IMG/VR virus record: IMGVR_UViG_3300030098_004020 | Coordinates: 1-26,379 of that record | Reading direction: 5' to 3' (one strand) | Origin: a virus | Length of the DNA stretch: 26,379 nucleotides | Part shown: positions 16,441-20,641 of the stretch, one piece after another | Numbering within the stretch: position 1 is the stretch's first letter | How the letters are laid out: each line of letters begins with the position of its first letter | Translations under genes and position numbers: made by a program | Notes under the pieces: model-generated | Database searches by the model: none | The model's input: the letters and a program-made list of their open reading frames with translations, nothing else | Told to the model about the DNA's origin: nothing

Positions 16441-16488
16441 CCAACCGTGTGGTTGGGTTATGTTTTTTTGGTCCAACCGTTTGGTTGG
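16441..16488. promoter_or_regulatory. Twin palindromic operator-like sites, CCAACC-N4-GGTTGG
   Basis: Two perfect palindromes are seen, CCAACC-GTGT-GGTTGG at 16441-16456 and CCAACC-GTTT-GGTTGG at 16473-16488. Their centres are 32 bp apart, about three helical turns, so dimers would bind one face of the DNA. They lie between a possible minus-strand -10 (TACTAT, 16438 to 16433) and a possible plus-strand promoter (TTGTTA-N18-TACTAT, 16492-16521). A T7 tract separates them, so the first could also act as a weak plus-strand terminator. A regulator binding here could set the balance of late and early transcription; this is inference. Confidence 0.5.
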
Positions 16489-16491
16489 GTA

Positions 16492-16521
16492 TTGTTATAC
16501 GTTGTTTGGTATATTTACTAT
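16492..16521 (+). promoter_or_regulatory. Candidate plus-strand promoter TTGTTA-N18-TACTAT
   Basis: The hexamers are reasonable matches to the housekeeping sigma consensus, and the spacer is 18 bp. The second CCAACC palindrome ends 4 bp before the -35. A competing -10, TATATT at 16510, is also possible. Transcription from here would run about 200 nt before reaching the stronger promoter at 16700. Confidence 0.35.
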
Positions 16522-16734: not shown

Positions 16735-17045
16735 TAGTACCCCGATAAGGGAAGCACTAGAGGACCGGAGAGAAAACCGGAAGCAATCTAGAGGCGGTCG
16801 AAATGGTCAGCGATGACACACCATGAAGGTGGTAAACGATACCGGCGATGTGGAAGTAATCAGGGGAAAGCGTGTATCGGTGTTAGGTCCGATGAACTTA
16901 GAGGTTTAGAGCAGTACCCACGGGCAAACACTCACTAAGTAATTATCGGTAGGCGTGAAGGGTCTAGGCAGAGATCTGAGAGAGTGAAGGGCGTTCCCCT
17001 TGTAGTAGCTTTCGACTGAGTGAATTGAGACTGTCACACCCTTAG
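16735..17045 (+). ncRNA. Candidate large structured RNA at the head of the early operon
   Basis: About 310 nt without a supported gene follow the early promoter. A TAAGGG/CCCTTA helix (16746-16751 with 17039-17044) can close the whole region. Inside are CCGG/CCGG (16765-16780), GTCA-GCGA-TGAC with a GNRA loop (16806-16817) and CACC/GGTG (16819-16831). Further stems are CGATAC/GTATCG (16837-16842 with 16874-16879), a TAGGT/ACTTA stem (16884-16900) and AAGGG/CCCTT (16987-17001). A longer-range CACTCA/TGAGTG helix joins 16929-16934 to 17017-17022. The AAGGG hairpin is followed by GTAGTAG, as the first hairpin of the intergenic modules is followed by TAGTAGT. I could not match it to group I or II introns, RNase P, tmRNA or a tRNA. 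It could be an independent RNA or a long regulatory leader. Confidence 0.5.
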
Positions 17046-17053
17046 AGTCTTTC

Positions 17054-17115
17054 TTTCCTTCTCTGTGGAATTAACCACACTGACGAGGCTCCAACCGGAG
17101 CTAGAAAGAAGGAAA
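17054..17115 (+). promoter_or_regulatory. Possible ribosome-binding-site sequestering fold before the first early gene
   Basis: TTTCCTTCT at 17054-17062 is a perfect 9-nt complement of AGAAGGAAA (17107-17115), the Shine-Dalgarno block of the gene at 17117. Two small hairpins lie between them, TGTGG/CCACA (17064-17079) and GCTCC-AACC-GGAGC (17088-17101). A multiloop closed over the ribosome-binding site would block initiation. The alternative state leaves only the second hairpin abutting the site, as in the later modules. Confidence 0.4.
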
Positions 17116-17116
17116 C

Positions 17117-17311
17117 ATGAGCGCACCTAGAACAGTAGGCCGGTACTCCGTAGGTAGAACCTGTGTGAGTATCGCCAACCGTAATAAAGAGTTCTACCGA
17201 TTGAAGAAATTGGAGCGGATAGAACAGCTCAACCGGAGTAAAGGCGAAACGAACATACCTGAACATGACGTTTCAGGGTGGATAGTTTCAGCCGATAAAA
17301 TCCGGTGGTAG
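17117..17311 (+). CDS. Early small protein, 64 aa, basic, function unknown
   Basis: This is the first gene of the early operon. ATG 17117 follows GAAAGAAGGAAAC. The protein is basic, with an N-terminal Arg/Ser/Gly region and a charged helix (EFYRLKKLERIEQLNRSK, about residues 25-42), then a short end with GWIVSADKIRW. No domain is recognised. Its ribosome-binding site can pair with an upstream pyrimidine run (17054-17062). The stop codon is followed at once by the first two-hairpin module. Early, small, basic phage proteins often bind host enzymes or nucleic acid, but nothing specific can be claimed. Confidence 0.65.
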   Translation: MSAPRTVGRYSVGRTCVSIANRNKEFYRLKKLERIEQLNRSKGETNIPEHDVSGWIVSADKIRW

Positions 17312-17374
17312 TGCTTAGGGCATCCGCAAGGGTGCCCCTAGTAGTATCACCTGATACTAGAAAGAAGGAAGATA
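17312..17374 (+). repeat. Two-hairpin intergenic RNA module, copy A
   Basis: The module fills the 63-nt gap between stop and start. Hairpin 1 is GGGCATCC-GCAA-GGGTGCCC (17318-17337), 8 bp including a T-G wobble, with a GCAA tetraloop. Hairpin 2 is TAGTATC-ACCT-GATACTA (17342-17359), 1 nt before the Shine-Dalgarno block AAAGAAGGAA. The sequence differs from the other copies mainly by paired changes. Confidence 0.7.
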
Positions 17375-17611
17375 ATGAAAGAGTTCACTATCAACATAGA
17401 GCCGGACTATTTAACTACTGGCTCACACGTTGCAAGCCGAATACTAGAAGCACGGCCCGAAAATATGACCGTCGCTAGCTGGCGTGCAACTGTGGTTACA
17501 TTCGCCGAGCATATCCGCTACCTGGCTTTTAAAGCTGCGGACGCTCCCGAAGGTGAACTAAGTGATTATCATAAACTTATGATTCACTTGGATACTTACC
17601 TACCTCGCTAG
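17375..17611 (+). CDS. Early small protein, 78 aa, function unknown
   Basis: ATG 17375 sits 4 nt after GAAAGAAGGAA at the end of module A. The protein is soluble, with an N-terminal beta-like stretch (MKEFTINIEP) followed by helices containing WRATVVTFAEHIRYLAFKAA. No Cys, signal peptide or known motif is present. The TAG stop at 17611 is directly followed by module B. Such isolated alpha-helical proteins in early phage operons are often host-takeover factors; that is only context. Confidence 0.65.
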   Translation: MKEFTINIEPDYLTTGSHVASRILEARPENMTVASWRATVVTFAEHIRYLAFKAADAPEGELSDYHKLMIHLDTYLPR

Positions 17612-17680
17612 GTTGTGCTTTGGACATTCGTGAGAGTGTCCTTAGTAGTGCCTAGTGGCACGGAAAGAAGGAAAAGAATA
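17612..17680 (+). repeat. Two-hairpin intergenic RNA module, copy B
   Basis: The module runs exactly from stop to start (69 nt). Hairpin 1 is GGACATTC-GTGA-GAGTGTCC (17622-17641). Hairpin 2 is GTGCC-TAGT-GGCAC (17648-17661), with GGAAAGAAGGA following immediately. Over about 55 nt it differs from copy D at one base, which suggests a recent duplication or gene conversion. Confidence 0.75.
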
Positions 17681-18064
17681 ATGGCAAGAAGATGGTCATA
17701 CGAAGAGAGCGATACCATAACAGAAGCGTTCTTGAAGGTAATCAGTTACAAGAACGACCTAATGAAGACCCCTATATGGGATAACATGGTAGACGGTAAA
17801 CCTAAAGGTTGGAGAACCGACTACACAAGATATTGTAAACATGGTACCAATGTAGGTGACCCTTATGGACCTGATTACCTTTGTGGGTACTGTGAAGACG
17901 ATACTCCTGATCAGGTGCTAGAAGATAAGGCATACATGCTCCGACTTGAGCAAGTTGCAGAAAATTGGGAAGCGTTCGCCCTTGATTTAGCTTTACACCT
18001 TGAGCACGGATTACCGTTCGAGAGTCAATTAAAGGAACTCAAGATCGGTGTACTACCTAGCTAG
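17681..18064 (+). CDS. Early protein with Cys/His zinc-binding-like motif, 127 aa
   Basis: I start the gene at ATG 17681, placed after GGAAAGAAGGA. The frame is open further upstream, but only by reading through module B, whose hairpins then would be coding. The protein has YCKHGT (C52, H54) and YLCGYC (C68, C71), a spacing that can hold one zinc ion. The product of the gene at 18130 has a similar YLCDVC end, so the two may be distant relatives. The C-terminal part is a helical acidic region. Function is unknown. The stop is immediately followed by module C. Confidence 0.7.
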   Translation: MARRWSYEESDTITEAFLKVISYKNDLMKTPIWDNMVDGKPKGWRTDYTRYCKHGTNVGDPYGPDYLCGYCEDDTPDQVLEDKAYMLRLEQVAENWEAFALDLALHLEHGLPFESQLKELKIGVLPS

Positions 18065-18129
18065 GTTGTGCTTTGAGCATTCGCAAGAGTGCTCTTAGTA
18101 GTGCCTAGCGCACTAGAAAGAAGGAAGAT
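18065..18129 (+). repeat. Two-hairpin intergenic RNA module, copy C
   Basis: The module runs from stop to start (65 nt). Hairpin 1 is GAGCATTC-GCAA-GAGTGCTC (18075-18094). Relative to copies B and D, the second and third pairs of the stem are swapped on both sides (GGA/TCC becomes GAG/CTC), and the loop changes GTGA to GCAA. Hairpin 2 is TAGTGC-CTAGC-GCACTA (18099-18115), ending directly at GAAAGAAGGAA. Confidence 0.75.
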
Positions 18130-18468
18130 ATGATTAATTGGTACAACAAAGAAGTAGACCTTGACCGTTGGCGTAGAGGTGATCGGTATTATCATTGGTG
18201 TGACGCATTCAATGACATGGAAGACCCATGCGAAGAAATGGGTGGCAACATGCACTGGGACTTATGTACTAAGTGCATTAAGCTCCCTGACTTGTATGAC
18301 CGTCTAAACTTCGAGCATCATGAGGAATACAAGAACACTAAGGGTAGCCATATTGATGGACCTTGTGCTAGACCTGAATACTATTGGAAGTATGATAGCT
18401 ACACGGGTGACGCTGAACCAAGCGGAGAGTATTTGTGCGACGTGTGCAAGATCGTCTTGAATCACTAA
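18130..18468 (+). CDS. Early Cys-rich protein, probable zinc-ribbon type, 112 aa
   Basis: ATG 18130 follows GAAAGAAGGAAGAT. The protein has two similar halves of Cys ligands: C24, C34, C46-x2-C49, and H74, C79, C103-x2-C106. It is very rich in Asp, Glu, Tyr and Trp. Two CxxC knuckles with further Cys or His fit one or two structural zinc sites. No named family is recognised. The YLCDVC segment resembles YLCGYC in the 17681 product. Acidic zinc proteins in early phage operons can act as inhibitors or DNA mimics, but this is speculation. The stop is directly followed by module D. Confidence 0.7.
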   Translation: MINWYNKEVDLDRWRRGDRYYHWCDAFNDMEDPCEEMGGNMHWDLCTKCIKLPDLYDRLNFEHHEEYKNTKGSHIDGPCARPEYYWKYDSYTGDAEPSGEYLCDVCKIVLNH

Positions 18469-18534
18469 GTTGTGCTTTGGACATTCGTGAGAGTGTCTTT
18501 AGTAGTGCCTAGTGGCACGGAAAGAAGGAAGATA
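18469..18534 (+). repeat. Two-hairpin intergenic RNA module, copy D
   Basis: The module runs from stop to start (66 nt). Hairpin 1 is GGACATTC-GTGA-GAGTGTCT (18479-18498), with a G-T pair at its base. Hairpin 2 is GTGCC-TAGT-GGCAC (18505-18518), followed at once by GGAAAGAAGGA. It is nearly identical to copy B. Confidence 0.75.
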
Positions 18535-18792
18535 ATGTCAGAAAGAATAACGATGAAACATATAGAGTTTCAGTTACAGGCTTTAAACGGTTACTTCGGT
18601 ATCAAAGATGCTAAATGGGACACTGTAGGGCACTTCTATGTTGACCAATCTAACGGGGGCTACCGATTAGTGCGTGTCATCAATGAAGGTGGTGGTTGTA
18701 CGGATATTTCGTTTCGTGGAACTAAGCGTGAGATATACGACAGTCTCTACGCAATTAACAATGTCTTGGTTGCAACAATCTTGCACCGATAA
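18535..18792 (+). CDS. Early small protein, 85 aa, function unknown
   Basis: ATG 18535 lies 5 nt after GGAAAGAAGGAA. The open frame continues upstream only through module D, so that extension is rejected. The protein mixes a helical start (HIEFQLQALNGYFGI) with beta-rich sequence (HFYVDQSNGGYRLVRVINEGG). It ends in a helix with YDSLYAINNVLVATI. This order suggests a small alpha/beta fold. There are no Cys clusters or catalytic motifs. Role unknown; probably a host-interaction or regulatory factor given its neighbours. Confidence 0.65.
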   Translation: MSERITMKHIEFQLQALNGYFGIKDAKWDTVGHFYVDQSNGGYRLVRVINEGGGCTDISFRGTKREIYDSLYAINNVLVATILHR

Positions 18793-18872
18793 AGATTGCT
18801 AAGTTGTGGGTTGGGCATTGGAGACAGTGCCTTTCCTAGTGCTTAGATAGGGCACGGAAAGAAGGAAAAGAT
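18793..18872 (+). repeat. Two-hairpin intergenic RNA module, copy E (divergent)
   Basis: This 80-nt gap holds the most diverged copy. Hairpin 1 is GGGCATTG-GAGA-CAGTGCCT (18813-18832). The closing pair of the loop is changed from C-G to G-C, and the loop is now GAGA, a third GNRA variant. Hairpin 2 is GTGC...GCAC with a 9-nt loop (18839-18855). GGAAAGAAGGA follows. Confidence 0.65.
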
Positions 18873-18995
18873 ATGGACGCTTTAAGATGGAGTCACGGTT
18901 GGATAACCGTACCCGATACCATGCGTAAAGACTTAGTAGAAATTTGGGAAGCAGTTACTAAACTTCCTACTGAGTTAAGCGAAGAATCTAGTTAA
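18873..18995 (+). CDS. Early very short protein, 40 aa
   Basis: ATG 18873 follows the standard GGAAAGAAGGAAAAG block of module E. The product starts MDALRWSHGWITVPDTM, continues as an amphipathic helix (RKDLVEIWEAVTKL) and ends acidic. No homology is recognised. Support is the conserved ribosome-binding module, a clean stop and the position in the gene series. From here on the module disappears: the next gene follows after 24 bp with a plain AGAAAGGAGG site. Confidence 0.6.
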   Translation: MDALRWSHGWITVPDTMRKDLVEIWEAVTKLPTELSEESS

Positions 18996-19627: not shown

Positions 19628-19743
19628 ACCGAGCAGACGCACGGTAATAAATCCTAGAGCTGATGAGCGTAGCTCCCTACCCATCTGAAGATAGTCCCCT
19701 GTCGTAGGGTGGGTAGTGGGAAACGCTTGACGGTGTTTCAGAA
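19628..19743 (+). ncRNA. Candidate structured RNA element with three-way junction
   Basis: CTACCC/GGGTAG (19677-19682 with 19711-19716) can close a junction holding a short ATCT/AGAT stem (19683-19692) and CCCT-GTCGT-AGGG (19697-19709). GAGCT/AGCTC (19657-19675) precedes it. AAACGC-TTGACG-GTGTTT (19721-19738) follows and ends just before the AGAAAGAAAGGAG ribosome-binding site of the gene at 19759. The last hairpin thus repeats the hairpin-next-to-ribosome-site layout of the upstream modules, with unrelated sequence. A CTGATGA box is present, but a hammerhead fold does not close. No known family is recognised. Confidence 0.4.
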
Positions 19744-19894: not shown

Positions 19895-20335
19895 ATGAGT
19901 ATAAAATCTGACATAGAAAAATCTGAAAAGATATTTGCTCCGTATGAAATACCAGTTGATGTAACCAGTTATGAGCAATACGCTAAAGACGTATTTGAAA
20001 CTGCTATTGAAGGCGGTATTAATTATTGGGCTGACATCTATGAGGTATCTTATGATGAGGGTCGTGGTTGGTACGCCAAGCTGACCGTCTCTGACGATTA
20101 CTATGATGATGGTACTAGTTTTGTGCTTGATTGGTGGACCATTATGAGTGGGACACAACGTCTTGTGACATCAGGTATTAATTACGAAGCTGGTTCTTTA
20201 ATCAGCCAAGTTGTTGCAGTTCTAAAAGAAGCAGCAGAGACAGACGACTATGAGAAATTTCTCAACATGTACGATGTCGAATGGACAGATATTATTGTCC
20301 AGCACGGGTTGTTTGGAGGGCTTGTTTTCGGATAA
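19895..20335 (+). CDS. Early protein, 146 aa, function unknown
   Basis: ATG 19895 follows AGAAAGGAAAGAAT. The product is acidic and rich in Tyr, Asp and Trp. It runs through a helix (EQYAKDVFETAIEGGINYWADI), a beta-rich centre (GRGWYAKLTVSDDYYDDGTSFVLDWWTI, about residues 55-83) and helices that end with the VQHGLFGG segment. The 'a.egGinyWa....' motif followed by beta strands is familiar from small actinobacteriophage early proteins of unknown role. It is the last gene before the terminator at 20347. Confidence 0.65.
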   Translation: MSIKSDIEKSEKIFAPYEIPVDVTSYEQYAKDVFETAIEGGINYWADIYEVSYDEGRGWYAKLTVSDDYYDDGTSFVLDWWTIMSGTQRLVTSGINYEAGSLISQVVAVLKEAAETDDYEKFLNMYDVEWTDIIVQHGLFGGLVFG

Positions 20336-20346
20336 GCTATTCATTG

Positions 20347-20390
20347 CCCCCCATACGGGTTTGGTCCTTCTTTCCCTGTATGGGGGGTTT
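20347..20390 (+). terminator. Strong terminator hairpin with a loop complementary to the early Shine-Dalgarno block
   Basis: CCCCCCATAC (20347-20356) pairs perfectly with GTATGGGGGG (20378-20387), followed by TTT. The stem has 10 pairs, seven of them G-C. It follows the last early gene by 11 bp. The T-run is short, which is common in actinobacterial terminators. The 21-nt loop carries TCCTTCTTTCC (20365-20375), the exact complement of GGAAAGAAGGA found before three upstream genes. Confidence 0.75.
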
Positions 20391-20410: not shown

Positions 20411-20641
20411 ATGGACTGGAGAGAGAAAGCTGGCTGTCGTGGTATGACTGCGACGTTTTATTCAGACCAACATCGTAAGTGTAGGTTTGTTTGTAATTCT
20501 TGCCCTGTGTTTGAACAGTGTATTGGTACGTCTGTTGAGGATGAACCTGACCCTTTCCAACTCTGGGGTTTCAGACATGGGATGACGGCTTCCGAGCGTC
20601 ATCGTTGGCGTATGATGAAGGCCAGACTTGACAGCGTGTGA
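20411..20641 (+). CDS. WhiB-like transcriptional regulator, 76 aa
   Basis: Wbl proteins hold a [4Fe-4S] cluster and bind region 4 of the housekeeping sigma factor to redirect transcription. The product opens with DWREKAGCRG (C9) and has CNSCPVFEQC, i.e. C28-x2-C31-x5-C37, the family's cluster-binding set. An extra C24 is present. The LWGFRHGMTASER segment corresponds to the G[VI]WGG turn and following helix, though the second Gly of the turn is replaced by Phe. The C-terminus is basic and should bind DNA. Length is within the 75-130 range. It stands alone behind a terminator, so it can be expressed apart from the early operon. It may be the switch to middle or late genes, as inferred from position. 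Confidence 0.85.
   Translation: MDWREKAGCRGMTATFYSDQHRKCRFVCNSCPVFEQCIGTSVEDEPDPFQLWGFRHGMTASERHRWRMMKARLDSV

Follow-up and report, generated by a model that had tools for sequence, protein, structure and literature searches.

Candidate RNase III-type processing signals at consecutive early gene boundaries of an uncultured phage

Introduction

In the early region of an uncultured marine phage represented by an IMG/VR virus record, six consecutive genes are separated by five gaps of 63-80 nt, and each gap is filled by a copy of one RNA module (A-E). What such an element might do at one gene boundary after another is the question addressed here. The window, that is, the whole stretch of DNA that was analysed, is 26,379 nt long. 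On its plus strand lie early gene 1 (17117-17311; 64 aa), gene 2 (17375-17611; 78 aa), gene 3 (17681-18064; 127 aa), gene 4 (18130-18468; 112 aa), gene 5 (18535-18792; 85 aa, phrog_15017) and gene 6 (18873-18995; 40 aa). The exact stop-to-start intervals between them are 17312-17374 (gap A), 17612-17680 (B), 18065-18129 (C), 18469-18534 (D) and 18793-18872 (E), and these coordinates bear out a first-pass annotation of the sequence, in which the gaps ran exactly from stop codon to start codon across six consecutive genes. The gaps after gene 6 carry plain Shine-Dalgarno (SD) sequences and no modules.

Structure of the five modules

Sequence and covariation together define a rod of about 19-21 bp, built from a GNRA-capped hairpin (H1), a 2x2 internal loop, an outer helix (P2), a G.G mismatch and a basal helix (P3). 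The 8-bp hairpin H1 is the tip of this longer rod, whose arms are about 24 nt. Immediately 5' of the SD, an alternative hairpin (H2) can form. Module A (17301-17374) has its rod at 17301-17354, H1 at 17318-17337 with a GCAA loop, H2 at 17343-17358 and its SD at 17360-17369; its P3 (GGUGGUA/UAUCACC) takes in the end of gene 1. In module B (17606-17680) the rod occupies 17606-17657 and encloses the stop codon at 17609-17611, with H1 at 17622-17641 (GTGA), H2 at 17648-17661 and the SD at 17663-17672. Module C (18060-18129) likewise encloses a stop codon (18062-18064) in its rod (18060-18109), followed by H1 at 18075-18094 (GCAA), H2 at 18100-18114 and the SD at 18116-18125. The rod of module D (18463-18534) spans 18463-18514, contains one A.C mismatch and encloses the stop codon at 18466-18468; H1 is at 18479-18498 (GTGA), H2 at 18505-18518 and the SD at 18520-18529. 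Module E (18793-18872) is the exception, in that the upstream gene's own stop codon (18790-18792) falls just outside the rod (18799-18846); its H1 lies at 18813-18832 (GAGA), H2 at 18839-18855 and the SD at 18857-18866.

Constrained folding of the rod versus the two-hairpin fold gave -34.0 versus -24.1 kcal/mol for module A, -30.8 versus -25.6 for B, -30.2 versus -21.2 for C and -25.1 versus -24.0 for E; in module D the two-hairpin fold is slightly the more stable (-21.8 versus -22.8). Fold z-scores of the five copies range from -2.4 to -4.2, whereas two gaps without modules farther along the operon score about 0.

Much of the first-pass description survives this analysis. The 8-bp hairpins with GCAA, GTGA, GCAA, GTGA and GAGA loops were all found in A-E, as was a second hairpin close to the SD with its GAAAGAAGGA block; the paired base changes quoted between copies are correct, and modules B and D are indeed nearly identical (96% over 48 nt). 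The TAGTAGT sequence that had been assigned to a linker is also there, but most of it is the 3' strand of helix P2 (5'-UGCU/AGUA-3') rather than linker. An E-value scan of the window against Rfam 15 placed the modules nowhere near any gathering score.

Two module types in related phages

Relatives were gathered by a terminase search, which yielded 79 related viral loci, and more were added with DNA patterns and early proteins; blastn against INPHARED returned nothing useful. From eight related contigs (the window record, G001-G006 and G010), 41 module copies of two sequence types were tabulated. Type 1, to which the window modules belong, comprises 25 copies (alignment A2), and type 2 comprises 16 (alignment A3) with a 10-11-bp GGAGCRCA..UGYGYUCU stem. 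A model was built from each type (R1 from type 1, R2 from type 2), and each gives weak matches to the other type: E 1.8e-4 for type 2 with R1, and E 0.005 for type 1 with R2. Both types occur together in G004 and G010. In relatives, a single contig can carry as many as seven or eight copies, and all 41 copies are intergenic, with an ATG 3-9 nt 3' of the SD. When the best hairpin 5' of SD blocks was sought without constraint, GNRA loops were the commonest class. Outside the tally, one further copy lies in G009 and one in the divergent relative L171 (2716-2786; E 3e-7). No convincing module match was obtained in G011-G015, five relatives whose early regions differ, and no Rfam 15 family exceeded its gathering threshold in the seven related loci scanned.

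A divergent module, possibly a third type, stands before the gene 5 orthologue in L127 (5080-5160), where a 12-bp stem with a TTTA loop is followed by a 6-bp second hairpin at the SD; R2 finds it weakly (E 2.6e-4).

Selection acts on the RNA

RNAalifold and a count over the named structure agree on the helices of type 1: the 8-bp helix, a UU/UU 2x2 loop and the 4-bp outer helix P2, which occurs as UGCU/AGUA, UACU/AGUA, UAGG/CCUA and UGGG/CCCA. Of the cells in these helices, 99.6% are paired, and double changes occur at 6 of the 12 pairs. The covariation score is 0.565 versus 0.259±0.023 for shuffled alignments, above all 500 shuffles; with P3 included, 97.6% of cells are paired and eight pairs are double-changed. 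The GNRA loop and the core CAU/GUG are kept while flanking pairs vary, and CA/UG and the U.G pair are invariant in the H1 stem. The 274 cells include about 50 that are G.U and one that is A.C; because G.U is common and A.C almost absent, RNA of the coding (plus) strand is the molecule that folds and is selected. A DNA cruciform is ruled out by the same bias. The module structure is clearly under RNA-level selection, as judged from sequence comparison. The first-pass annotation had proposed such selection from five copies and suggested looking for covariation in related phages; the 41 copies in eight contigs strongly support it, with scores exceeding every shuffle.

The upstream stop codon and two competing folds

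Helix P3 was first seen on folding copies C and E, in which sequence around the upstream stop codon pairs with the H2 loop. In many copies it reaches the last codon of the upstream gene; the gaps are exact, as originally described, but the element itself extends 5' through P3 into that codon and the stop codon. At least two of the three stop codon nucleotides are paired in P3 in most copies (26/39). In 18 distinct type 1 rows, the third stop base and its partner form A-U nine times, G-C seven times and G.U once, and are broken once; UAA or UAG in the upstream stop covaries with U or C opposite it, in the H2 loop. The P3 strands themselves vary. In the first gap they are GGUGGUA/UAUCACC in the window and CUUGUGG/CCACAAG in G003, and type 2 copies have GCUUA/UAAGC, AGUUA/UAACU, UUAGUUG/CAACUAA, CUAGC/GCUAG and others. 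Each copy's own P3 strands nonetheless pair better than strands swapped between copies, with -9.93 versus -6.92 in type 1 (0/5000) and -9.02 versus -7.75 in type 2 (31/5000). Removal of duplicates gave 5e-5 and 0.008, respectively, and the same test on H2, which shares its 5' arm with P3, gave 0/5000 and 12/5000; these p-values ignore common descent and are indicative. Readthrough of the stop codon into the next gene was rejected, as the gap lengths are not in one frame.

H2 (GUGCC..GGCAC in type 1, GAUGC..GCAUC in type 2) and P3 are mutually exclusive, yet both are conserved. Under constrained folding, each of the 41 copies is able to adopt either fold, with at least 5 bp in H2 and at least 5 bp in P3; the rod is better than the two-hairpin fold by 4-5 kcal/mol on average, and the SD is almost always free in both. 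The two-hairpin architecture of the first-pass annotation is present and conserved, but it represents only one of two conserved folds.

Likeness to RNase III sites of the T7 group

The early mRNA of phage T7 is cut by RNase III. A resemblance between its processing sites and the modules emerged when T7, as a control, was folded for rod length. Site R1.1 is GGUCAUUCGCAAGAGUGGCC, within which CAUUCGCAAGAGUG is identical to copy C; the 14 identical nucleotides common to the two are CATTCGCAAGAGTG, at 18078-18091. The models R1 and R2 had been built from the modules alone and before any comparison with T7. When R1 is run on just the T7 early region, its top match is R1.1 (E 0.006), and R1.1 again ranks first (E 0.029) in a 37.5-kb control set of T7, T3, phiYeO3-12, lambda and T4 segments. 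The only other R1 matches aligned to H1 are the R1.1 sites of T3 and phiYeO3-12, which are weak (E about 5), and the top match of R2 in the control set is T7 R0.3 (E 0.12). The motif G[GA]NCAU..GUGN'[CU][CU] has seven matches in the early regions of T7, T3 and phiYeO3-12, all of them at RNase III sites on the coding strand, and none in the lambda or T4 segments; in 2.5 Mb of control strands, the background rate is 0.118 matches per 10 kb of strand. This motif was defined after R1.1 had been seen, and the 15 sites of the three phages are interrelated, so that the seven matches represent perhaps two to four independent events.

The likeness extends beyond sequence. Folded with site positions taken from the record annotation for T3 and phiYeO3-12 and with what we take to be the cut positions for T7, the 15 sites form rods of 15-21 bp whose arms measure 18-26 nt. 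Module rods have arms of 23.7±1.6 nt in type 1 and 24.0±1.4 nt in type 2, lengths that are partly bounded by the folding constraints, and at 18-24 bp in nearly all 41 copies they span roughly two helical turns. Both the modules and the T7-group sites (R0.3, R0.5, R1, R1.1 and R1.3) lie between consecutive early genes, R1.1 originating between genes 1.0 and 1.1 (PMC6121014); all 41 module copies are in gaps, presumably within a single transcript. The upper stem GGNCAU..GUGNCC with its U.G wobble is common to both and occurs in all five window copies, R0.3 and R1.1 have a GCAA loop, and the annotated stem-loop of phiYeO3-12 R0.45 overlaps the stop codon of gene 0.3.

There are also differences. 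By terminase search, the module phages are a group unrelated to that of T7. The asymmetric internal loop of T7-type sites, 4/5 in R1.1 (PMC6121014), is absent from the modules, whose 2x2 loops are symmetric. Unlike the T7-group sites, the modules stand in each of five consecutive gaps, regularly hold a stop codon in the basal helix, and have an SD-proximal alternative hairpin and a uniform GAAAGAAGGA SD. The modules may well work like T7-type R sites, by analogy, but for want of the asymmetric loop they are not filed as such.

Processing and alternative functions

From these comparisons, the modules are probably processing signals of the RNase III type, placed between the cistrons of a polycistronic early transcript. 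Processing by RNase III was among several roles listed in the first-pass annotation, and it is the one best supported, by sequence likeness to T7 sites and by rod length. Host RNase III would cut near the border of P2 and H2, a position placed by analogy with the T7 cut, which we take to lie just 3' of the upper stem. The upstream mRNA would then end a few nucleotides past its own stop codon, and the downstream mRNA would begin at or beside H2, which would fold once its strand was freed by the cut. H2 could protect the new 5' end and leave GAAAGAAGGA single-stranded for the gene's own initiation, the long early message being converted into single-gene messages. Such a role at the start of the cut downstream RNA is proposed as the reason why H2 is conserved despite the greater stability of the uncut rod.

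Several features fit this reading less comfortably. The internal loops are symmetric, in contrast to the loop of R1.1; the two-hairpin fold is marginally the better one in module D; and the GNRA loop is strongly conserved, although to our knowledge bacterial RNase III does not need it. The host, which a WhiB gene suggests is actinobacterial, may have an RNase III with preferences of its own, and RNase III enzymes can differ (PMC6121014).

If processing signals they are, an unrelated uncultured phage lineage that probably infects actinobacteria puts such an element at consecutive early gene boundaries. The T7 signals are few and confined to that phage group, whereas here two diverged types have the same architecture and the T7 core stem. 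The modules would offer a data set in which the RNA features read by RNase III could be compared, an example of a stop codon that is kept in a conserved helix and covaries with the leader of the following gene, and an explanation of how small early genes can be swapped with independent expression kept.

Translation could gate the processing, a ribosome terminating in P3 deciding between a rod that is cut and an uncut two-hairpin refold; we hold this elaboration only tentatively. If true, the cleavage and expression of each gene would depend on translation of the preceding one, and the modules, with both folds kept in 41/41 copies, would form a class of stop-codon-sensing RNA switch. A rather unlikely variant dispenses with cutting: a terminating ribosome would melt P3 and P2 and allow H2 to form at the SD, the rod otherwise staying in place, and the switch would tune or insulate initiation of the next gene. 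The pairing of the stop codon in P3, the covariation of its third base with the H2 loop and the conservation of two exclusive helices are all consistent with such a switch. However, nearly all copies leave the SD unpaired whichever fold they adopt, so that the switch has no obvious output, and the likeness to T7 RNase III sites would be left unexplained.

Retention of the GNRA loop and core CAU/GUG among variable flanking pairs is also what a binding site might show, if a phage or host protein recognised the GNRA-capped stem and controlled the genes of the array together. All type 2 copies in G010 share a GCGC variant, which a common partner would explain, as would conversion. We nevertheless consider this improbable, as no candidate regulator has emerged and H1 resembles RNase III sites; for the phage RNA-binding regulator raised in the first-pass annotation, no specific evidence was found.

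Least probable of all is that the modules are recombination junctions for shuffling small early genes, with structure incidental, since compensatory changes and the G.U/A.C bias require selection on one-strand RNA and homology alone would favour identical rather than covarying copies. Traces of exchange are nonetheless present. In comparisons between contigs, the 5' halves of modules resemble each other more if the modules share their upstream gene (0.802 versus 0.722, p 0.001), and the 3' halves more if they share their downstream gene (0.795 versus 0.710, p 0.003); and orthologous genes carry a type 1 module, a type 2 module or none in different phages. Because the similarity of half modules tracks the adjacent gene, genes are taken to be exchanged with break points inside modules. 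This exchange is a consequence or second use of the modules, and it does not explain the covariation.

Comparison with other phage intergenic repeats

The best-known analogue named in the first-pass annotation, the SAS and ESAS repeats of cluster K mycobacteriophages, resembles the modules in position, directly 5' of non-structural gene starts and in longer intergenic gaps (PMC3203893), but the analogy fails in sequence, RNA pairing and promoter features. The SAS is a 13-bp GGGATAGGAGCCC before the start codon and is absent from all module copies. For the ESAS, the authors who described it saw little to support RNA pairing (PMC3203893), and later work placed SigA-like promoters in it (PMC11373665), whereas the modules covary as RNA and show no promoter excess: promoter-like sites in modules are not above shuffles, and the one 9/12 match touches module B only. 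An intrinsic terminator or internal promoter was rejected as an explanation, with no terminator-like site (stem and T-run) in any module. The PeSL (promoter-early stem-loop) cassettes of T4-like phages, as cited in PMC4503421, are likewise repeated intergenic stem-loops where small early genes shuffle. They join a terminator to an early promoter; the modules have neither, but have an SD and covary as RNA. The inactivation of T4 early messages at SDs by RegB is a functional relative in a broad sense only (PMC3014915).

Neighbouring elements

The last 70 nt of the operon leader (17047-17116, plus strand) form a three-way junction in which a CUUUCUUUCC strand pairs with the gene 1 SD. The tract CUUUCUUUCCUUCUC is conserved there and pairs with that SD in seven contigs (the window, G001, G003-G006 and G010). 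The skeleton of this leader is related to the modules, but it is not a module. Core letters of the junction are hammerhead-like (CUC, CUGANGA and GAAA, in type III order), but GAAA is preceded by an additional A; with Rfam Hammerhead_3 the leader reaches 13.6 of the 48.5 bits needed, and the model finds nothing in L127. Farther upstream, between a promoter-like TTGACT box and gene 1, about 300 nt (16740-17046) hold no convincing gene. In relatives this region falls into two sequence classes, the second with covarying GTAT/GTAC-loop hairpins, and it has no Rfam match.

Downstream of the array, a further conserved intergenic rod lies at 19660-19735 (GAGCGU..ACGCUU or GAGUGU..ACACUC in relatives), with a constant AG/AA internal loop at at least eight loci and no Rfam match. 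The phrog_2355 protein (19895-20335) stands after the array in every module-bearing contig covering that region, and its family is the one that all of these contigs share and that five module-free contigs lack. It was considered as a module-specific regulator and set aside, the family being common in unrelated phages without modules. A gene for a WhiB-like transcription factor (20411-20641; Pfam E 7e-8) points to an actinobacterial host; a prophage search for the host found no terminase relative among GTDB genomes. Before this gene, a hairpin at 20347-20387 (CCCCCCATACGGG..CCTGTATGGGGGG) has a loop, TCCTTCTTTCC, complementary to the GGAAAGAAGGA SD blocks of the array. Its counterpart in L135 has a different stem and keeps the loop core, and the hairpin is possibly a trans-acting anti-SD RNA or a terminator. 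Finally, the interval that separates the late operon from the divergently oriented early operon holds two hairpin repeats, nearly identical (CCAACCGTxTGGTTGG; 16441-16496) and 32 nt apart, each followed by a T-rich stretch and terminator-like in appearance.
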